NCBI GenBank assembly: GCA_003136795.1
Contig: PLDP01000123.1
Coordinates: 1,601 to 11,623 of the forward strand
Direction: 5' to 3'
Length of the DNA stretch: 10,023 nucleotides
Origin: Actinomycetota bacterium
Lineage (GTDB): Bacteria; Actinomycetota; Thermoleophilia; Gaiellales; Gaiellaceae
Of this stretch, positions 608 through 10,023 are shown piece by piece (position 1 is the first letter of the stretch; each line of letters opens with the position of its first letter). A model generated the notes under the pieces. The model was not told the DNA's origin, did not search any database, and saw only the letters and a list, made by a program, of their open reading frames with translations. A program made the position numbers and the translations under genes.

Positions 608-784
608 ATGAAATTTCGCGACTGGTTCGAGCTGGTGCGCATCCAGCTCCATCGCGAGGAAGGTCAGACGATGGCCGAGTACGGCATCTTGATCGCCGTG
701 ATCGCAATCGTCGCAGCCGTCGGTGCCGCCGTGTTTGGCACCGCCCTGTCAACCTTCTTCACTGGCCTCTCCGGCAAGCTCTAG
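608..784 (+). CDS. flp: Flp-family type IVb prepilin (first copy)
   Basis: This small gene encodes 58 residues. A 19-residue charged leader (KFRDWFELVRIQLHREEG) ends in a glycine. It is followed by QTMAEYGILIAVIAIVAAVG, the hydrophobic helix that packs the pilus core. G19|Q20 with E24 at +5 and Y25 at +6 is the classic Flp prepilin site, cut by a TadV/CpaA-type peptidase. The mature peptide would be about 39 residues, in the usual Flp range. It ends in FFTGLSGKL with almost no globular part. It probably forms the shaft of the Flp pilus used for adhesion or biofilm formation. The start is fixed by the strong Shine-Dalgarno just upstream. It is the first gene of the Tad operon and is separated from the second pilin by a 12-bp stem-loop, which could let it be expressed at a higher level. 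Confidence 0.93.
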   Translation: MKFRDWFELVRIQLHREEGQTMAEYGILIAVIAIVAAVGAAVFGTALSTFFTGLSGKL

Positions 785-853: not shown

Positions 854-1021
854 ATGCCGCAGATGTTCCACACAGCCAGCACCGACGAACGCGGCCAGAC
901 GATGGCCGAATACTCCGTCGTCGTCGCGGTCATCGCGATCGTCGTCGCACTCGTGCTCCCGCAGCTCGCCACGGCGATCGGAGCGTTCTTCACCGAAGCC
1001 GTTCAGGCGCTGGGAGCCTGA
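854..1021 (+). CDS. flp: Flp-family type IVb prepilin (second copy)
   Basis: This gene encodes 55 residues in a second Flp-like prepilin. A short leader (PQMFHTASTDERG) is followed by QTMAEYSVVVAVIAIVVALV and an amphipathic tail, FFTEAVQALGA. G14|Q15 with E19 at +5 and Y20 at +6 repeats the processing site of the first copy. The stretch CAGACGATGGCCGA is identical in both genes, which fits tandem duplication followed by divergence. Against the first copy, G26 is replaced by serine, the core helix has more valine, and LPQ (35-37) puts a proline in the helix. The start could be ATG 854 or ATG 863; neither has a good Shine-Dalgarno, so this gene is probably translated less than the first. The stop lies 1 base before the next gene. 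It could be a minor pilin, a tip or base subunit, or an alternative shaft subunit. Confidence 0.9.
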   Translation: MPQMFHTASTDERGQTMAEYSVVVAVIAIVVALVLPQLATAIGAFFTEAVQALGA

Positions 1022-1022
1022 C

Positions 1023-1424
1023 GTGGCACGCCGGGGATCGCTGCTGCGGAGTGAGAACGGGCAGGCCGCCGTCGAGCTGGCGTTCGTGCTGCCGCTCCTC
1101 ATTGCACTGCTGCTCGCAATCGTGCAGTTCGGAATCGCCTTCAACAACTACATCACGCTCACCGACGCGACGCGCGCCGGCGCACGCAAGGCGGCGGTCA
1201 GCCGCTTCGCCGGCGACAACGGTGCGTCGGCGGTCGCTGCGGTCAAGGCCGCGGCGAGCGACCTGGATCAGACCAAGCTCAGCGTCACCGTCACGTCGAC
1301 CGACTGGACGACGCCCGGCAGCGACGTCTCCGTGAGCGCCACCTATCCCTTCTCCGTGAACATCCTCGGCTGGTCGGTCACATCCGGGACGCTCACGAGC
1401 ACGACAGAGGAGCGCCTCGAATGA
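1023..1424 (+). CDS. tadE: TadE-like minor pilin / pseudopilin
   Basis: This gene encodes 133 residues. The GTG start at 1023 is supported by GGGAG (1012-1016), 6 bases upstream, and by its position 1 base after the preceding stop. The N-terminus has SLLRSENG then QAAVELAFVLPLLIALLLAI, the TadE/TadG-type signature of a short basic leader, a G|Q-A-A-V-E site (G13, E18) and one hydrophobic helix. FNNYITLTDATRAGARKAA follows, also typical of the family. The rest (about 55-133) is a Ser/Thr/Val-rich domain expected outside the membrane. TadE-like proteins are processed by the same prepilin peptidase as Flp and are thought to prime or cap pilus assembly. The stop overlaps the cpaB start by 4 bases (ATGA). 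No separate TadF or TadG gene is visible, so this may be the only pseudopilin of the cluster. I cannot tell TadE from TadF by sequence alone. Confidence 0.88.
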   Translation: MARRGSLLRSENGQAAVELAFVLPLLIALLLAIVQFGIAFNNYITLTDATRAGARKAAVSRFAGDNGASAVAAVKAAASDLDQTKLSVTVTSTDWTTPGSDVSVSATYPFSVNILGWSVTSGTLTSTTEERLE

Positions 1425-2185
1425 CCTACCGTGTGAGGAACATCGTCGTCGCCGTCGCGCTGGCCCTGATCGCGGCGCTCCTGACGACCTTCTACGTCGC
1501 GAACTACAAGCGGCACGTCCGCCAGAGCGAGAGCACCGTCACGGTCTACGTGGCGAAGCACGACATCCCGCAAGGCACGACGGGCGCCGATTTGATCAAG
1601 AACGGCTGGATCTCGACACAGCAGGTCGTCCAGCGGACGGTCGTCCCGGGCGCGATCTCCAACCCCGACCAGGTGCGCAACCTGATCACGCGCCAGGACA
1701 TCTACACGGGCGAGCAGGTCTCGCTCCGCCGCTTCGCAGACCACGCCGAGCAGGGCGTTCGCGTTCAACTCCACGGCGCGCTGCGCGCGATCTCGATTCC
1801 CGGCTCCGCCGACGCCCTCCTCCAGGGAACGCTGCGCGACGGAGACCACGTCGACGTGATCGCCGACCTGAAGACCGGTGACTGCTCGACATGCCTCGCC
1901 GTGCGCGACGTCGCCGTCAACGTGCTCGTTCTGAACGCATCCGAACCGGGCACCGGAACGAGCAGCATCGGAGGAACGACCGGCTCGGTGATGCTGGCGG
2001 TCAGCAACCGCGGCCAGGCGCAGAAGATCTACTACGCGGTCGAGAACTCGGTCGGCTGGTCGCTCGTGCTCCGCCCCGTGGCGAACGCCGTCGACGCCCC
2101 CGCGGATGTCGAAGGAGTCACGTCGGTGCTCAAGGACGGCGCCTCCTCGGCCAGCCTGCAGCACCTGACGGCAGGTGGACAATGA
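1421..2185 (+). CDS. cpaB: Flp pilus assembly protein CpaB/RcpC
   Basis: This gene encodes 254 residues. A single N-terminal membrane segment (about 7-27) follows a short basic start (MTYRVRN), so the remainder should be outside the cytoplasm. Residues about 38-105 form the SAF-like domain, with VTVYVAKHDIPQGTT, a W-I-S-T segment and the typical IYTGEQVSLRRF. Residues 112-225 match the RcpC/CpaB domain, with AISIPGSADALLQGTLRDGD then HVDVIADL and a closing VGWSLVLRP. In Gram-negatives CpaB works with the secretin; in single-membrane bacteria it may line or brace the pilus exit through the wall. C155 and C158 form a CxxC pair in GDCSTC, which I do not recall as a general family trait. GAGGAG (1407-1412), 8 bases upstream, is a strong ribosome binding site. 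Its ends overlap tadE and the next gene by 4 bases each. Confidence 0.92.
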   Translation: MTYRVRNIVVAVALALIAALLTTFYVANYKRHVRQSESTVTVYVAKHDIPQGTTGADLIKNGWISTQQVVQRTVVPGAISNPDQVRNLITRQDIYTGEQVSLRRFADHAEQGVRVQLHGALRAISIPGSADALLQGTLRDGDHVDVIADLKTGDCSTCLAVRDVAVNVLVLNASEPGTGTSSIGGTTGSVMLAVSNRGQAQKIYYAVENSVGWSLVLRPVANAVDAPADVEGVTSVLKDGASSASLQHLTAGGQ

Positions 2186-3369
2186 GCGAGCAGACGACCC
2201 CGCGCACGCGCCTGTACTTCACCGGCAACTGCGACGGCTTCAACGAATTGCGCGACGCGCTCGCGCAGCACCCCGAGCTCGAGGTGATCGGCTCCAGCGA
2301 GCACGTCGCCCAGGCAACCGGGGTCCTCGCCGGCGGCCACCTGGAGTGCATCCTCCACGGGACGCGGTCCGGCGCGTTCCCCGCGGACGAGGTCGCCGCG
2401 ATCCGCGAGCAGACCCGCGCGCCGATCGTCGTCGTCGCGGCCGGAGGAACGGCCGCGATCCTCGACGAGGCGCTCGAGGCCGACGTCTCGGACGTCCTGC
2501 TGCTCCCGCAGATGATCGAGAACGTCGTCTTCACGGTGAAGAAGGCATCGCATGCCAAGCGCGCGGTGCCGGAGAGCTCGCGCACCCAACTCGGACGGGT
2601 CGTCACGGTGTTCTCGCCGAAGGGCGGCACCGGCAAGACCGTCACCGCGTCGAACTTCGCCTGCACGCTCACCAAGCAGGGCCGCAGGACGCTCCTGCTC
2701 GACCTCGACCTGCAATTCGGCGATGCCGCGATCGTGCTGGGCATCGAGCCGGAGAAGACGATCTACGACCTGGTCGTCGCACCGGGCGAGCTCGACTTCG
2801 AGAAGCTCGCCGGTTACACGACCAAGCATCCGTGCGGCCTCGACATCCTCCCCGCCCCGCTGCGCCCGGAGGATGCCGAGCTCGTGACCGAGTCGAAGAT
2901 CACGCGTCTTCTGGAGGTCGCGCGCGAGTGCTACGACGTGATCGTCGTCGACACGTCGCCGTTCTTCCACGGGCCGATGCTCGCGACCCTCGACCGCACG
3001 GACGACCTGCTCGTTCTCTGCGGGCTCGACGTGCCGACGCTGAAGAACGTGCGGCTCGCGATGCAGACGCTCGAGCTGCTCTCGTTCCCGAAAAGCCGCA
3101 TCCGGTTCGTCCTGAACCGCGCGAACACGAAGGTCGGCCTCAGCAAGCGCGAGGTCGAGAGCGCGCTCAGGATCACGATCGACGTCGAGATGCCGTCGGA
3201 CCGCGCAGTCCCCGTGTCGGTCAACCAGGGGGCGCCGGTCGCCCTCTCCAATCCCGGCTGCGACTTCGCGAAGGCGATCGCCAGCCTGACCAAGGTGGTC
3301 GTCACCGAACAGAAGGCGAAGGGAAAGGCGAAGGCCGGCAGGCGGCGCTTGAGCCTGGCGAGGAGCTGA
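2182..3369 (+). CDS. cpaE: TadZ/CpaE-type ParA/MinD-like ATPase with atypical receiver domain
   Basis: This gene encodes 395 residues. Residues about 9-125 look like a response-regulator receiver fold. The usual phospho-acceptor aspartate strand reads ECILHGT (54-61), with His59 near the expected Asp position, so phosphorylation is unlikely. Residues 137-370 are a MinD/ParA-type ATPase. The deviant Walker A is FSPKGGTGKT (144-153), with K147 as signature lysine and K152 as P-loop lysine. Walker A' is LLLDLDLQFGD (171-181) and Walker B is DVIVVDTSP (252-260). TadZ/CpaE proteins mark the assembly site, often the pole, and recruit the other Tad components. The C-terminal tail (377-395) is rich in lysine and arginine and may bind membrane lipid or nucleic acid. 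The ATG at 2182 was chosen because it overlaps the cpaB stop (ATGA) and follows AGGTGG (2173-2178). The frame is open further upstream, but only as out-of-frame cpaB sequence. Confidence 0.93.
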   Translation: MSEQTTPRTRLYFTGNCDGFNELRDALAQHPELEVIGSSEHVAQATGVLAGGHLECILHGTRSGAFPADEVAAIREQTRAPIVVVAAGGTAAILDEALEADVSDVLLLPQMIENVVFTVKKASHAKRAVPESSRTQLGRVVTVFSPKGGTGKTVTASNFACTLTKQGRRTLLLDLDLQFGDAAIVLGIEPEKTIYDLVVAPGELDFEKLAGYTTKHPCGLDILPAPLRPEDAELVTESKITRLLEVARECYDVIVVDTSPFFHGPMLATLDRTDDLLVLCGLDVPTLKNVRLAMQTLELLSFPKSRIRFVLNRANTKVGLSKREVESALRITIDVEMPSDRAVPVSVNQGAPVALSNPGCDFAKAIASLTKVVVTEQKAKGKAKAGRRRLSLARS

Positions 3370-3370
3370 C

Positions 3371-4801
3371 GTGGGGCTCCACGACCGCATCTCCAAGCAA
3401 GGCGACGGCACCGCGACGCTGACCGTCGTGCCGAGCGGTGCTCGGAGCACCGGCCAGTCCGCGCGCACCGAGGATCCCTACGCCGAGCTGAAGGCCCGCA
3501 TCCACCACCAGTGCATCGCCAACCTCGGGCCCGAGCTCTTCAAGCAGGACGGCTCCGATGACCTCGCAGACCAGGTCTATCGCGCCGTCACCGAGGAGCT
3601 CGCGCTCGACCGCACGCCACTCACCCGCGAGGAGCGGCGCGAGGTCGTCAGGCAGCTCACCGACGACATCCTCGGGTACGGGCCTATCGAGCCGCTGCTC
3701 CGCGACGACACCGTCACCGAGGTGATGGTGAACGGGCACGACAGCGTCTACGTCGAGCGTGGAGGCAAGCTCGAGCGCAGCGACGTGAGTTTTGTCGACG
3801 AGTCGCACGTCATGCGCATCATCGACAAGATCGTCTCGCAGGTCGGGCGCCGCATCGACGAGGCCTCGCCGATGGTCGATGCGCGCCTTCCCGATGGCAG
3901 CCGTGTCAATGCGATCATCCCGCCGCTTGCGCTCAACGGCCCCACGCTGACGATCCGCAAGTTCTCGCGTGACCCGTACACGATCAACGACCTGATCACG
4001 TTCGGAACGCTCACCGCACGCTCGGCGCAGTTCCTCGCAGCCTGCGTCAAGGGCAAGCTGAACATCCTCATCTCGGGTGGAACCGGCACCGGCAAGACGA
4101 CCACGCTGAACGCGATGAGCGCCTTCATCCCGGGCGACGAGCGCATCGTCACGATCGAGGACGCAGCCGAGCTCCAGCTCCAGCAGGACCACGTGATCAC
4201 GCTCGAGTCGCGCCCGTCGAACATCGAGGGGAGCGGCGAGGTCAAGATCCGCGAGCTCGTCCGCAACGCGCTGCGCATGCGGCCCGACCGGATCATCGTC
4301 GGCGAGGTTCGCGGGGCCGAGACGCTCGACATGCTCCAGGCGATGAACACGGGCCACGAGGGCTCGCTGACGACGATTCACGCCAACTCGCCCCGCGACG
4401 CGCTCGCGCGCCTCGAGACGCTCGTGCTCTCCGCGGGCGTCGAGCTGCCGCACCGCGCGATCCGCGAGCAGATCTCGAGCGCGTTCGACGTGCTCCTACA
4501 GATCCAGCGCCTGGTCGACGGCTCACGCCGGATCACCCACATCTCCGAGGTGCTCGGGATGGAGTCGGACGTGGTGACGCTCCAGGACATCTTCGTCGCG
4601 TCGCCTCCCGGCGAGGACGAGGCGTATGCCGCGGCGCACCGGCTGCTCTCGCCGCTGCGCGTCACCGGTCTGAAGCCGCACTTCCTCGAGAAGCTTGCGG
4701 CGAACAACGTCGTCCTCCCGCCCACCTTCTTCTCGGGCGACGACCCCGAGCAGCTGCGGGCGTCGTTCGCCGCCACGGGCTTCGGCGGTGCCTACGAATG
4801 A
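3371..4801 (+). CDS. tadA: TadA/CpaF pilus assembly ATPase
   Basis: This gene encodes 476 residues and is the hexameric secretion motor of the Tad system (VirB11/PulE-type ATPase). Residues about 35-135 are the N-terminal domain, with [10 protein letters not shown] (101-110) and VTEVMVNG (115-122). Residues 150-455 hold the RecA-like core. Walker A is [11 protein letters not shown] (234-244), with K242 the catalytic lysine. The Asp box is [11 protein letters not shown] (260-270), Walker B is RIIVGEVRG (307-315), and the His box is [15 protein letters not shown] (327-341). All key residues are intact, so it should hydrolyse ATP and drive extension and possibly retraction through TadB/TadC. The GTG start follows AGGAG (3361-3365) and lies 1 base after the tadZ stop. 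Its TGA overlaps the next ATG by 4 bases. The first 33 residues are low in conserved features, and length is near the family norm. Confidence 0.96.
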
Positions 4802-6690
4802 CCGCCCGCCTGCGCCGGCGCCGCCGCCGCTGGGCCCTGCGCGGCCTCCCCATCGCGTTCGCCGCGCTCGTCGTCGTGCCCTCCGCGCTCGCCGCGGTGC
4901 GCATCAGCGCGATCGACACCTCCAACCTTCCCGCCGTGCGCGCCACGCTCGTCGGCCCGCTCGGCGCTCCGGCGCCGTCGCTCACCGAGAACGGCCGGCC
5001 GGTCGTGGGGTACTCCGCGGTCAACCTCGCGCGTGAGAAGTCGATCGTGCTGGCGCTCGACCGGTCACAGTCGATGCGGGGCCGTCCGCTCGCCGCTGCG
5101 GTCGCCGCCGCACAGTCATTCGTGGCCGCCGCCGGCGCGACCGACCACGTCGGCGTCGTCGTCTTCGGCCACGCCGCGCTTGCGCTAACGCCCTCGTCCG
5201 CCTCCCCGGCCGACGCGCGCAGCGCGCTCGAGGGGCTGACGGTCGATCCGCGCTCCGGGACCGCGCTGTACGACGCGGTCAGCCTGGCCGCGAGCCGTCT
5301 CGTCGGCGACGACCGGCCGGGCCGCGCGATCGTCGTCGTGACCGACGGCCGAGACGTCTCGAGCAGCGAGACGATCGAGCAGGCGATCGCCGCGGCGCAG
5401 GCCGCGCACGCCGCCGTCTACACGATCGGGATCGGCGGGCCGAGCTTCACGCCGGGCGCGCTGCGCAAGCTCGCAGCGGCGACCGGAGGCTCCTACCACC
5501 AGACGCGAAGCGCCGCACGGCTGCGCGACGTCTACGCGGCACTCACGGGCGAGCTCGCGCGCACGTGGCAGCTCTCGTACGTCACCTCCGCCCGTCCGGG
5601 CGCCCACCTGCAGCTCGCAGCGACCGTCGCCGGCGTCGGCACGGCGCGGAGCGAGCTCGATCTGCCGGGCGACGCGGGCGCTGGCTCGAGTGCACCGTCA
5701 TCGTTGATCCCGGCCGCCGGCTACAGCACGACCGGGACCGTCATCGTCGCTGTCCTCTCCGGCCTGCTCGTCCTGCTGGCGTGCGGCTTCTGGTTCACGG
5801 CACGCGGCAGCAACCGCGTGCGCGACCGCATCGAGCCACATCTCAGCGCCGTGGCGCGCACGCCGCGGGCCCGCCGCCAGCGCGGCCGGGTCGCCGCGCG
5901 CACGCACATCGCCGACGGGATCGAGCGCGCGATCGGCGGCCTCGCTCGCTTCAAGCGCCTGCAGGTGACGATCGACCGCGCCGACCTGCCGCTGCGCGCC
6001 GGCGAGCTCGTGGCTCTCTGCGCCGCGTCAGCGCTCTTCTTCGGGCTCGTCACCGCGCTGACGGTGTCGTCGCCGCTCCTCGTTGTGTTGATGGTCGCGC
6101 TCTTCGCCTCCCTGCCCGTCGGGTACGTCTCGCTGAAGGCGACGGCGCGGATCAAGAGGTTCGAGAACCAGCTCCCCGACCTCCTGATCACGATCGCAGC
6201 GTCCCTCAAGGCGGGTCACAGCTTTCGCCAGGGCATCCAGTCGGTGGTCGACGAAGGCTCCGAGCCGGCTGCGAAGGAGTTCCGGCGCGTGCTGACCGAG
6301 ACCCAGCTCGGCAAGCCCATCGACGACGCGCTCGCCGACCTCGCGACGCGGATCGGCTCGAAGAACCTCACGTTCGTGATCAATGCCGTCACCATCCAGC
6401 GGCAGATCGGCGGCGCGCTCGCCGGGCTCTTCGACATGGTCGCGGACACGGTGCGCCAGCGCCAGCAGTTCGCGCGCAAGGTCAAGGGGCTGACGGCGAT
6501 GGGACGCATGTCGGCGTACGTCCTCGCCGGGCTCCCGGTCTTCGTCGGCCTCGTCGTGAGCGCGCTCAACCCGTCGTACATGGCCCCGCTCGTCCATACC
6601 GCAACCGGTCAGAAGCTGGTGATCACCGGGTTCGCGATGATCGGGGTTGGGACGCTCATGCTCAAGAAGATCGTGTCGTTCAAGGGATAG
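4798..6690 (+). CDS. tadB: Fusion of secreted von Willebrand A domain and TadB platform protein
   Basis: This gene encodes 630 residues, about twice a normal TadB. A basic run (R4-R11) and hydrophobic segment (about 16-33, ending SALAA) form a signal peptide or anchor. Residues about 82-250 are a VWA domain with an intact metal-ion-dependent adhesion site: D88-R-S90-Q-S92, T155 in SGTALYD, and D183 in VVTDGRD. A Gly/Ser/Pro linker (291-310) leads to a membrane segment (312-334) and a basic stretch (335-370). Residues about 385-630 are a TadB-type T2SSF protein: two adjacent helices (403-446), the cytoplasmic bundle (NQLPDLLITIAASLKAGHS, 457-475; AGLFDMVADTVRQR, 542-555), and two C-terminal helices (571-591, 605-625). 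The frame is continuous with no sign of an artificial join. The VWA domain should lie outside the membrane. TadG proteins elsewhere carry VWA domains, so this fusion may supply that function. It is coupled to tadA by ATGA. Confidence 0.9.
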   Translation: MTARLRRRRRRWALRGLPIAFAALVVVPSALAAVRISAIDTSNLPAVRATLVGPLGAPAPSLTENGRPVVGYSAVNLAREKSIVLALDRSQSMRGRPLAAAVAAAQSFVAAAGATDHVGVVVFGHAALALTPSSASPADARSALEGLTVDPRSGTALYDAVSLAASRLVGDDRPGRAIVVVTDGRDVSSSETIEQAIAAAQAAHAAVYTIGIGGPSFTPGALRKLAAATGGSYHQTRSAARLRDVYAALTGELARTWQLSYVTSARPGAHLQLAATVAGVGTARSELDLPGDAGAGSSAPSSLIPAAGYSTTGTVIVAVLSGLLVLLACGFWFTARGSNRVRDRIEPHLSAVARTPRARRQRGRVAARTHIADGIERAIGGLARFKRLQVTIDRADLPLRAGELVALCAASALFFGLVTALTVSSPLLVVLMVALFASLPVGYVSLKATARIKRFENQLPDLLITIAASLKAGHSFRQGIQSVVDEGSEPAAKEFRRVLTETQLGKPIDDALADLATRIGSKNLTFVINAVTIQRQIGGALAGLFDMVADTVRQRQQFARKVKGLTAMGRMSAYVLAGLPVFVGLVVSALNPSYMAPLVHTATGQKLVITGFAMIGVGTLMLKKIVSFKG

Positions 6691-6697
6691 CCGGCCG

Positions 6698-7603
6698 ATG
6701 CTCCTGCTCCTGGCCATCCTCTGTGTCGGCGCCGCGATCTTCGTGCTCGGCGAGGTCGCGACGTATCCTGAGCGGCTGAAGGCAAGGTCGGTCCGCCGAG
6801 CGACCGACTACGGCCACATCCGCGTGCGGACCTCCGAGCGCGAGCTGATGCGTTTCCGCGAGCGCGTGCTCGTGCCGGCCGCGTCGCGGCTGGCTGCGAT
6901 CCCACTCAAGCTCAGTCCGCGTACGAGCGTCGAAGCGATCGCCAGCAAGCTCGTGGCAGCCGGTCTCGCGTCCCGCCTCGACGCGCGCGGCTTCCTCGCG
7001 ATCAAGGGCGGTGCGACCATCGCGGCCGGCCTCACCGGTTTCGCGCTCGGCGCCAGCGGCTCAGCCACGAACGCGCTGCTGCTCACTCCCGCGTTTGCGG
7101 CGATCGGCTTCATCGCCCCCGACTGGATCCTGACGATGAAGATGCGCGCCCGGCGGGAGGAGATCCGCAGCGAGCTGCCGGATGCACTCGACCTGCTGGC
7201 GGTCAGCGTCGAAGCCGGCCTCGGCTTCGACGGCGCGGTCACCAAGCTCACCGAGCACATGAGCGGCCCGCTGATCGACGAGTTCGCGCTGACGCTGAAC
7301 GAGATTCGCGTCGGCGAGTCGCGCCAGGTGGCGCTGAAGAAGATGGCGGCCCGGGTCGACGCGACCGAGCTCTCGAACTTCGTCCGCGCGGTCGTGCAGG
7401 CGGAGCAGCTCGGGATCTCGCTGGGGCGCATCCTGCGCGTCCAGGCCGCGGACACGCGCCTGCGCCGTCAGGCCGCCGCCGAGGAGAAGGCGATGAAGGC
7501 ACCGATCAAGATGCTCTTCCCGACGGTGATCTTCATCTTCCCGTCGATGTTCATCGTCGTGCTCGGCCCCGCGATGCTCACGATCCTGAAGGCATTCAAA
7601 TGA
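6698..7603 (+). CDS. tadC: TadC pilus assembly platform protein
   Basis: This gene encodes 301 residues, the usual length for TadC. It has an N-terminal membrane helix (about 2-20), a basic cytoplasmic stretch (24-57), two helices (about 104-146), and a T2SSF cytoplasmic bundle (about 158-268). Hallmarks in the bundle are RSELPDALDLLAVSVEAG (157-174) with GLGFDGAV directly after, and QAEQLGISLGRILRVQA (234-250). The bundle is followed by the C-terminal membrane segment (PTVIFIFPSMFIVVLGPAML, about 275-294). TadC pairs with TadB in the inner membrane and couples the TadA motor to pilin insertion. The ATG at 6698 lies 7 bases after the tadB stop. AAGGGA (6682-6687) is a usable ribosome binding site 10 bases upstream, and the start gives a clean first membrane helix. 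A longer upstream reading is open but lies inside tadB out of frame. The stop overlaps the next gene by ATGA. Confidence 0.94.
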   Translation: MLLLLAILCVGAAIFVLGEVATYPERLKARSVRRATDYGHIRVRTSERELMRFRERVLVPAASRLAAIPLKLSPRTSVEAIASKLVAAGLASRLDARGFLAIKGGATIAAGLTGFALGASGSATNALLLTPAFAAIGFIAPDWILTMKMRARREEIRSELPDALDLLAVSVEAGLGFDGAVTKLTEHMSGPLIDEFALTLNEIRVGESRQVALKKMAARVDATELSNFVRAVVQAEQLGISLGRILRVQAADTRLRRQAAAEEKAMKAPIKMLFPTVIFIFPSMFIVVLGPAMLTILKAFK

Positions 7604-9042
7604 CGCACGAGACCGAGAAGGGATTCGGCACCGGCCTCCGTTCGAAGCTCGAGCGGACCCAGAACGGCGGCTCGATCGAGCCGGAGGTCGTGGAGCCGGT
7701 CGCGGTCGTCGTCTCTGCGCCCGTCGACGTGATCGTGCAGGGCACCGTGCCCGAGCTCGATGCGATGCGCGGTGAGCTGCAGGCCGCACTCGAGCGCGAG
7801 CAGATCCTGCGCGAGGAGACGCATGCAGCCTGCCGCGCGGTCGCCGAGCGCGAGTCCGAGCTGGAGTCGTGGACGGCCGAGCTCCAGGAGCGCGAGGAAG
7901 CGATCGGCCGGCGCTCCGACGAGCTCGAGCGGGAGCATCGGACGCTCGTCGACCGGCACACGGAGATCGTCTCCGAGTACGCACGCGTTCAGGAGCTCTC
8001 GAGCCACGCCGAGTCGCGCGTGGACGAGCTGCAAGGCGCGGAGCGCGACCGCGCCGAGGCGGCGGCCGAGATCGCAAAGCAGCTCGCGTCACTCTCCGAG
8101 CGCGAGCGCGAGTTGAAGCGCGAGCGCGCGGCCTACGACGCCCGCCAGCAGGAGGCCGAATCGCGGCTCGCATCACGCGAGAGCACGCTGCGCGAGCGCG
8201 ACGTAACCGTCGCAGAGCGCGAGCGCCGGGTCCGTGACGCCGACACCGGCGCCGCGGGCATGCGAGCCCGTCTGGAGGCGCGCGACCAGTCGCTCGCAGC
8301 GAACGAAGCGCGCCTCACCCAGGAAGTTGCCGCGCTCGAGGACCAGCGCGCGGCAGTCGAAGCGACGCTCGATGAACGAGCCCGGTCGGTCGCCGACGGC
8401 GAGGCGGCGCTGCAGGTGTGGGAGCAGCGACTGCGCGCCGAGGCCGAGCGCATGCAGGACGAGCGCACCGAGCACGGCGTTACCTCGCAGGACGCATTCG
8501 CGCTGATGGCGGAGCTCGAGACGCGCGAATCCGCGCTCGCCAAACGCGAAGCCGAGGTGCTCGACGCCCAGTCGCGGCTGCAGGCCGCCTCCGCCGTCGC
8601 GCCGCGCGACCGCGACCTCGACGAGCGCGAAACGGCCCTGGTCGCCCGTGAGGCGGAGCTGAACCGGCGTCTGGCCACCGCGGCCCGGGACGAACGCGAC
8701 AACGACCTCGTCGAGCAGCTGCGCATCGAGCTGCGCAAGCGCGAGGACGAGGTCGCAGCCCGCGAGCAGTTCTTCGCCGACCGGCGCGAGCGGATCGAGG
8801 CTCGTGAGGAACGGCTCGTCTTCGTTGAGCGCGACCTCGCGGAAAAGACGGCCCAGACCGAGCGGCTCGAGGACGATCTCCGCGTCCAGTCGGCACGCCA
8901 CGAGGCCGATCTGGAGCTGCGCGAGGACAAGGTCGACGAGCGTCTGCATGACGTCGAGGAGCGCGAGCGGCGCCTCGAGCAGCGGGAGGCCGATCTGTCG
9001 ACGTACGTGATCTCGGTGCAAGAGCGCTTCAGCGCGGCATAG
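7600..9042 (+). CDS. Long charged coiled-coil protein of unknown function, coupled to tadC
   Basis: I do not recognise a named family. The 480 residues contain no signal peptide and no membrane helix, so the protein should be cytoplasmic. Residues 1-50 are a low-complexity head, with VEPVAVVVSAPVDVIVQ at 31-47. From about 51 to 467 it is a long, highly charged coiled coil, dominated by Glu, Arg, Ala and Leu, with repeats of the form L-x-x-R-E-x-x-L. R-E pairs recur at exact seven-residue spacing, for example R381/R388/R395/R402 and R441/R448/R455/R462. Likely breaks fall near 213-220 (RDADTGAA), 291-298 and 330-336 (ASAVAPR), dividing it into several rods. The start overlaps the tadC stop (ATGA) and TGAAGG (7587-7592) lies 7 bases upstream, so it is co-translated with the pilus genes. 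It could be a cytoskeletal scaffold that positions the Tad machine or a filament-forming protein. This is context-based inference. Confidence 0.85.
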   Translation: MTHETEKGFGTGLRSKLERTQNGGSIEPEVVEPVAVVVSAPVDVIVQGTVPELDAMRGELQAALEREQILREETHAACRAVAERESELESWTAELQEREEAIGRRSDELEREHRTLVDRHTEIVSEYARVQELSSHAESRVDELQGAERDRAEAAAEIAKQLASLSERERELKRERAAYDARQQEAESRLASRESTLRERDVTVAERERRVRDADTGAAGMRARLEARDQSLAANEARLTQEVAALEDQRAAVEATLDERARSVADGEAALQVWEQRLRAEAERMQDERTEHGVTSQDAFALMAELETRESALAKREAEVLDAQSRLQAASAVAPRDRDLDERETALVAREAELNRRLATAARDERDNDLVEQLRIELRKREDEVAAREQFFADRRERIEAREERLVFVERDLAEKTAQTERLEDDLRVQSARHEADLELREDKVDERLHDVEERERRLEQREADLSTYVISVQERFSAA

Positions 9043-9172: not shown

Positions 9173-10023
9173 ATGGCGGCGGCCGCCGCCGTCGCTCTGT
9201 CGGGCGACGTGCAGGGCGCACGCCCCGATCCAACGACCGAGGTCGTCGTGACGCTGCGCGCGCCGGCGCTCTCGACCTTCGGCCGCAGCCTGCTCTCCGC
9301 GTCCCACCGCGACTACCTGGCCCGCCTCGACGCCGAACAGAGCGTCGTCGCGCGGCGGATCGTTTCGGCGCTGCCCGCCACCCGGGTGCGCTGGCACTAC
9401 CGGTACGTCGTGAACGGCCTGGCCGTCGTCGTCCCCCGCTCCGAGGTCGCGGCGCTGGCCCACGTTCCCGGCGTCGTCGAGGTGTGGCCGAGCGTCCGCT
9501 ATCACGCGCTGAGCGACACGGGCGGGCCCGAGCAGATCGGCGCCGACCAGCTCTGGGGCACGAACTTCGAGACGGCGGGCAACGGGATGAAGATCGGGAT
9601 CATCGACGACGGCCTGGATGCCACCCACCCGTACTTCGACCCGAACGGCTTCCAGTATCCGCCCGGCTTCCCGAAGGGGCTGACCCAGTACACAACGCCC
9701 AAGGTGATCGTCCAGCGGGTCTTCACCCCCGCGTCGCCGACGTCGAAGTACGCGAAGCTGCCGTTCGACCCCGCGAACTCGTTCCACGCGACTCACGTCG
9801 CCGGCATCGCCGCGGGCAACCACGGCGTTATTGCAGCCGGGACGGCCATCTCCGGCGTTGCGCCGAACGCGTACCTCGGCAACTACAAGGCGCTGACCAT
9901 CCCGACGCCGGGCTTCGGCCTCGACGGCAACAGCGCGGAGATCGCCGCCGCGATCGACGCCGCCGTCTCGGACGGGATGAACGTGATCAACCTGTCGCTC
10001 GGCGAGCCCGAGGTCGAGCCGTC
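9173..10023 (+). CDS. Subtilisin-like S8 serine peptidase, N-terminal part (cut by window edge)
   Basis: The frame is open from the ATG at 9173 to the window edge (283 codons). Numbering from that ATG, residues about 22-115 resemble an I9-type propeptide: EVVVTLRAP near the start, then YRYVVNGLAVVVPRSEVAAL and VPGVVEVWPS, as in prodomains that fold and inhibit the enzyme. The S8 catalytic domain follows. The Asp motif is KIGIIDDGLDATHP, with catalytic D145. The His motif is FHATHVAGIAAGN, with catalytic H205. NVINLSLGEP matches the substrate-binding strand. The catalytic serine lies beyond the edge. The 60-residue gap between Asp and His exceeds the 32 of subtilisin, so there is an insertion. 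HATH replaces the usual HGTH. It is probably secreted, but the ATG lacks both a basic N-region and a nearby ribosome binding site; the same frame extends back to a CTG at 9146 and would give a good signal peptide. Confidence 0.85.
   Translation, partial: MAAAAAVALSGDVQGARPDPTTEVVVTLRAPALSTFGRSLLSASHRDYLARLDAEQSVVARRIVSALPATRVRWHYRYVVNGLAVVVPRSEVAALAHVPGVVEVWPSVRYHALSDTGGPEQIGADQLWGTNFETAGNGMKIGIIDDGLDATHPYFDPNGFQYPPGFPKGLTQYTTPKVIVQRVFTPASPTSKYAKLPFDPANSFHATHVAGIAAGNHGVIAAGTAISGVAPNAYLGNYKALTIPTPGFGLDGNSAEIAAAIDAAVSDGMNVINLSLGEPEVEP

Follow-up and report, generated by a model that had tools for sequence, protein, structure and literature searches.

The platform of Flp/Tad (tight adherence) pili is the protein TadB, or CpaG, which is usually about 300 residues long and has no further domains. 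According to the available passages of PMC11300603, contact between CpaF and CpaG/CpaH has been modelled and probed by mutation. The available passages of PMC12607857 describe CpaL, a minor pilin from Caulobacter that resembles TadG, as a Tad-system protein that combines a pilin-like module with a split von Willebrand A (VWA) domain bearing a metal ion-dependent adhesion site (MIDAS); modelling places this VWA at the pilus tip, and CpaL is proposed to be a mechanosensor. Among pilus adhesins, PilB of S. sanguinis and Mfa5 also have their VWA at the pilus tip, as far as the excerpts at hand describe them. In this study, we examine a gene in a stretch of 10,023 nucleotides of an Actinomycetota genome (contig PLDP01000123.1; the whole stretch is called the window hereafter), whose closest named database relatives belong to the Gaiellaceae (Thermoleophilia, Actinomycetota). 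The gene, at positions 4798..6690 on the + strand, encodes a VWA domain and a TadB-type platform in a single protein.

This fusion resembles TadB/CpaG in its PF00482 domain, its membrane helices and its position between tadA and tadC, resembles TadG/CpaL as a Tad-system protein with a MIDAS-type VWA, and resembles PilB and Mfa5 in having a pilus-linked VWA. However, the VWA of the fusion is carried by the inner-membrane motor platform and not by a component of the pilus tip. Most of the unfused TadBs found here are open frames of some 310-480 residues and lack a VWA, whereas about 305 extra residues, predicted to lie outside the membrane, precede the platform in the fusion, and at 630 residues with a VWA it departs from the usual description of TadB. 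Bat-type VWA membrane proteins (BatB 3ibs; 4jdu) are among the three PDB sequence matches of its VWA part; we take these to be proteins of another architecture, being solved chains without a T2SSF platform. A literature search, with subscription papers and preprints outside its scope, found no description of the VWA-TadB architecture, and no such fusion is described in the available passages of PMC12075869, PMC3244431, PMC6668835, PMC11300603, PMC10757668, PMC12008871, PMC7716237 and PMC12607857. The architecture is common in sequence databases and apparently undiscussed.

The frame is open throughout and encodes its 630 residues from an ATG that overlaps the stop codon of tadA (ATGA, 4798-4801). 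In Pfam-A, the protein matches VWA_2 (PF13519) at residues 83-184 (E 9.9e-15), VWA (PF00092) at residues 83-244 (E 1.5e-13) and T2SSF (PF00482) at residues 464-587 (E 3.4e-16, 59.8 bits against a cut-off of 25.2), all three above the curated cut-offs, and it gives no match at E <= 0.1 to PF13400 or PF07811, the families of pilin-like N-termini. The MIDAS (DxSxS...T...D) is complete, with D88, S90, S92, T155 and D183. A first-pass annotation, made from the letters of the DNA alone, had claimed a single-frame VWA-TadB fusion with exactly these metal-site residues, and both claims hold.

From its N-terminus onward, the protein begins with a Sec-type signal-like segment (4798..4893, residues ~1-32), Arg-rich at its start, then hydrophobic (a signal-like stretch at 12-41 by hydropathy) and with an Ala-X-Ala-like end; by a simple pattern, comparable N-termini occur in 41/43 fusions. 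The VWA domain follows (5044..5529, residues 83-244), and in the AlphaFold2 model it is flanked by beta strands on both its N-terminal side (4900..5025, residues 35-76) and its C-terminal side (5563..5661, residues 256-288). The first transmembrane helix of the platform (5719..5808, residues 308-337) leads into Arg-rich sequence, a hairpin at ~399-448 and the T2SSF domain, the TadB platform core (6187..6558, residues 464-587), with further hydrophobic stretches at 569-593 and 607-626. Because of the Arg-rich sequence after the first helix, the positive-inside rule assigns that helix an N-out/C-in orientation. The VWA is thus predicted to lie outside the membrane and the T2SSF domain inside, a call made from hydropathy and the positive-inside rule; this agrees with the outer-face placement put forward in the first-pass annotation, and hydropathy does not predict a cytoplasmic VWA. 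The model has a mean predicted local distance difference test score (pLDDT) of 82.0 and comprises the VWA with its flanking strands, a helical platform and, between them, a linker of low confidence (293-301). A structure search with the whole model returned mostly VWA matches and, because these fill the results, it is silent on the platform part.

The fusion is not a local oddity. At least 61 of the 396 sampled Actinomycetota genomes, with 31 family codes, carry full-length fusions, and this figure is a lower bound, with no more than three candidates scored per genome. In another search, of 61 genomes with that of the window included, 28 have a match that extends from query residue 90 or earlier to residue 600 or later. 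PF00092 and PF00482 are both present in 120/120 of the homologues listed among 2345 in the databases, and many listed homologues bear the label 'tight adherence protein B' in one source. In a class sample, 100/299 genomes match at E <= 1e-20, fused or unfused. A scan of named genomes covered the best 80 of 581 relatives, in which 40 loci are fused according to a profile; they belong to Acidimicrobiia, Coriobacteriia, Nocardioidaceae (with the culturable Nocardioides flavus and N. iriomotensis, loci L095 and L106), Intrasporangium, Lentzea, Flexivirga, Candidatus Aquicultor, several unplaced Actinomycetota metagenome-assembled genomes (MAGs) and two MAGs labelled Acidobacteria (L075, L117). In these loci, tadC lies directly 3′ of the fusion in 40/40 and tadA directly 5′ in 36/40, the four exceptions being three contigs that start inside the fusion and one locus with a split TadA match. 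Within the same genus there are also unfused TadBs; they were seen in G008, and in G010 as its second TadB copy. The fusion is therefore widespread but patchy in Actinomycetota. Some genomes, G015, G035 and G046 among them, have a second, divergent fusion group (L041-L044, L032, L033) in addition to the first; therefore, some cells have two VWA-TadB systems.

The metal site is conserved across this range. Its positions are identical in 45/45 fusions of the first set, and it is intact in 100/105 distinct fusions of the wider set, a pattern of residues that supports ligand binding by the VWA.

With regard to origin, a quick tree of TadB was built from 145 distinct rows, 103 of them fused. Those from Acidobacteriota, Gemmatimonadota, Chloroflexota and Bacillota, 24 in all, are without exception unfused and lie on one side of it. 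Because row selection favoured resemblance to the fusion, fused rows are over-represented on this tree; the fused/unfused state costs 12 changes, and gain of the VWA is not separable from its loss there. On a quick tree of VWA sequences, 2 changes suffice to separate the 105 fusion VWAs from 23 others, compared with a shuffled mean of 21.4, and the strongly supported branches require only 1 change. From the VWA tree, the TadB tree alone being insufficient, the simplest reading is probably one joining event followed by losses. Transfer of the fusion between lineages may also have occurred.

Our preferred interpretation, which we hold tentatively and at somewhat under an even chance, is that the platform of an actinobacterial Tad machine gained an outside, MIDAS-type VWA that acts at the base of the pilus and couples pilin capture or load to the motor. 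According to this proposal, the N-terminus of the fusion would be exported by Sec, and a short tether would then hold the VWA close to the outer face of the membrane. By analogy with the CpaF-CpaG/CpaH contact in the available passages of PMC11300603, the T2SSF part would be seated inside on the TadA hexamer motor together with TadC. A divalent metal would mediate binding of the VWA to an acidic residue on a putative partner at the pilus base; the candidates are a minor pilin such as TadE or TadG, the filament as it emerges, and the wall. In this way, pilin capture or pilus load would be linked to the motor platform. The gap between VWA and TadB is short, with a median of 23 residues in 123 loci (some records present twice), and the reach of the VWA to external surfaces is doubtful for this reason. 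The hosts are expected to be walled, single-membrane cells, and with ordinary cell-wall dimensions such a tether would hold the VWA close to the membrane, within the zone of the wall. We therefore infer that contact with pilins or the wall at the pilus base is to be preferred over an adhesin that reaches other cells.

Several observations weigh against this interpretation. Of 241/396 phylum genomes that match at E <= 1e-20, 180 have no full-length row among the matches listed, and the rows of family f5, among the matches listed in the class sample, are confined to the TadB part. By profile, 103 of the 121 rows on the Actinomycetota side of the TadB tree are fused and 18 unfused; two of the unfused rows (L021, L132) are contig ends, and a third (L123) was later shown to be fused with a diverged VWA. 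In five of the 105 fusions, each of them on the Acidimicrobiia side of that tree, MIDAS residues have been lost, and metal binding is therefore dispensable. Finally, the predicted template modelling score (pTM) of the AlphaFold2 model is 0.46, and the placement of its domains is uncertain. The fusions with a degraded MIDAS (L088, L107, L111, L117, L123) neighbour one another in the TadB tree, together with Acidimicrobiia-like rows.

Other explanations must be weighed against a coupling module at the pilus base. One of them is an artefact, in which an assembly chimera or a frameshift joined two genes. Nothing was found in its favour, and the same fusion in one stop-free frame is present in many separate genomes and metagenome proteins; we rejected this explanation, whose probability we regard as negligible. 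A stronger competitor, improbable but to be taken seriously, is that the module is structural: VWA and flanking strands would either encircle the pilus where it exits, as a ring or collar, or oligomerise the platform, and would sense no ligand. The constant operon position of the module and the members that keep the domain despite a lost MIDAS agree with a structural role of this kind, whereas retention of the MIDAS in most fusions at large divergence points to metal-dependent binding. Less probable again is a cell-surface adhesin, in line with the adhesion raised in the first-pass annotation, in which the VWA on TadB would bind environmental or host ligands: the short membrane tether would leave the domain within the wall zone, and the VWA fold is no proof of adhesion because TFIIH subunits and Bat proteins share it.

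The first-pass annotation had also reported that no tadG is visible in the cluster and had read this as fitting replacement. On such a reading, the tip pilin TadG would have passed its VWA on to TadB before tadG disappeared. In the window, the report is correct, with the tadE frame ending at 1424, cpaB starting at 1421 and no tadG between them. However, the genome of the window, which is 81% complete, encodes a TadG-type protein of 433 residues on another contig (C279), with PF13400 and a VWA slightly above the cut-off, and in the fusion operon of the nearest relative (G003) a tadG-like gene is retained, located between tadE and cpaB; fusion operons of other relatives contain a tadG-like gene as well. 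The fusion exists beside TadG, and the replacement is not borne out. TadGs were searched with PF13400 and VWA in the own genome, with PF13400 in 61 genomes and with Pfam scans of the TadG proteins; detection was by profile, a motif pattern having missed most TadGs, and Pfam was used for their VWAs because a VWA model derived from the fusions lacked the sensitivity to detect them. In favour of relocation, no TadG in a fusion locus has a Pfam VWA (0/18 and 0/11 in two sets, 0/27 distinct). However, TadGs outside fusion loci mostly lack it too (1/15 and 3/19 have it, i.e., 4/34 distinct, leaving 30/34 without), and the difference between 0/27 and 4/34 is not significant (Fisher p 0.12); these counts include a 202-residue fragment in the fusion set and fragments of 144 and 260 residues in the other set, one TadG of which lies ~7 kb from a fusion on the opposite strand. 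Two of the VWA-bearing TadGs are named individually (L087, L173) and the rest are counted as totals. No TadG VWA appeared among the matches of the fusion-built VWA model (E <= 1e-3, at least 110 positions), a model that is weak for TadG VWAs. Relocation of the VWA from TadG to TadB is unproven, and we consider it very unlikely. Mutual exclusion between a VWA on TadB and a VWA on TadG looked promising at these counts and was set aside at this p value.

The window contains the Tad locus, with all genes on the + strand in the order of two Flp-type pilins, tadE, cpaB, cpaE/tadZ, tadA, the fusion and tadC. The tandem pilin genes, both presumably of Flp type on the basis of their motif, lie 5′ of tadE at 608..784 and 854..1021 (stop codons included), encode fewer than 60 residues each and contain the GQTMAEY motif as EEGQTMAEY and DERGQTMAEY, respectively. 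They are followed by tadE (1023..1424; PF07811), for which the GTG start at 1023 is a guess within an open reading frame listed from 723, cpaB/rcpC (1421..2185; TIGR03177 above cut-off), a cpaE/tadZ-like ATPase gene (2182..3369; profile matches), tadA (3371..4801; PF00437, and TIGR03819 slightly below its cut-off) and, after the fusion, tadC (6698..7603; PF00482). Flp pilin, TadE, CpaB, TadZ, TadA, TadB and TadC are thus all found in a single locus, as in a Tad system, and a PF01478 match of the prepilin-peptidase type is present elsewhere in the genome. On the 3′ side of the tad genes, a coiled-coil gene is followed by a subtilase-like gene. The former (7600-9042) overlaps the tadC stop and encodes a Glu/Arg-rich, coiled-coil-like protein of 480 residues, and the relative G003 has the same gene; the latter (9173-10023) encodes a subtilase-like protease (S8) that also matches the I9 pro-domain, and it likewise follows the tad genes in G003. 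The contig of the window (L035) contains N stretches in parts outside the window.

For how a pilus motor learns of load or contact, one recent proposal, in the available passages of PMC12607857, is the tip sensor CpaL. The VWA-TadB fusion offers a single protein in which to ask whether a sensor may be located at the base of the pilus. It is possible, but to our minds unlikely, that these proteins define a distinct Tad class of Actinomycetota, in which a metal-switched VWA clamp of the platform would sense load or pilin arrival at the pilus base and would signal to TadA via the same polypeptide, instead of or beside tip sensing. Many actinobacterial systems were left generic in a large survey, recognisable parts being wanting, according to the available passages of PMC6668835, and the fusion may serve as a mark of actinobacterial Tad systems.
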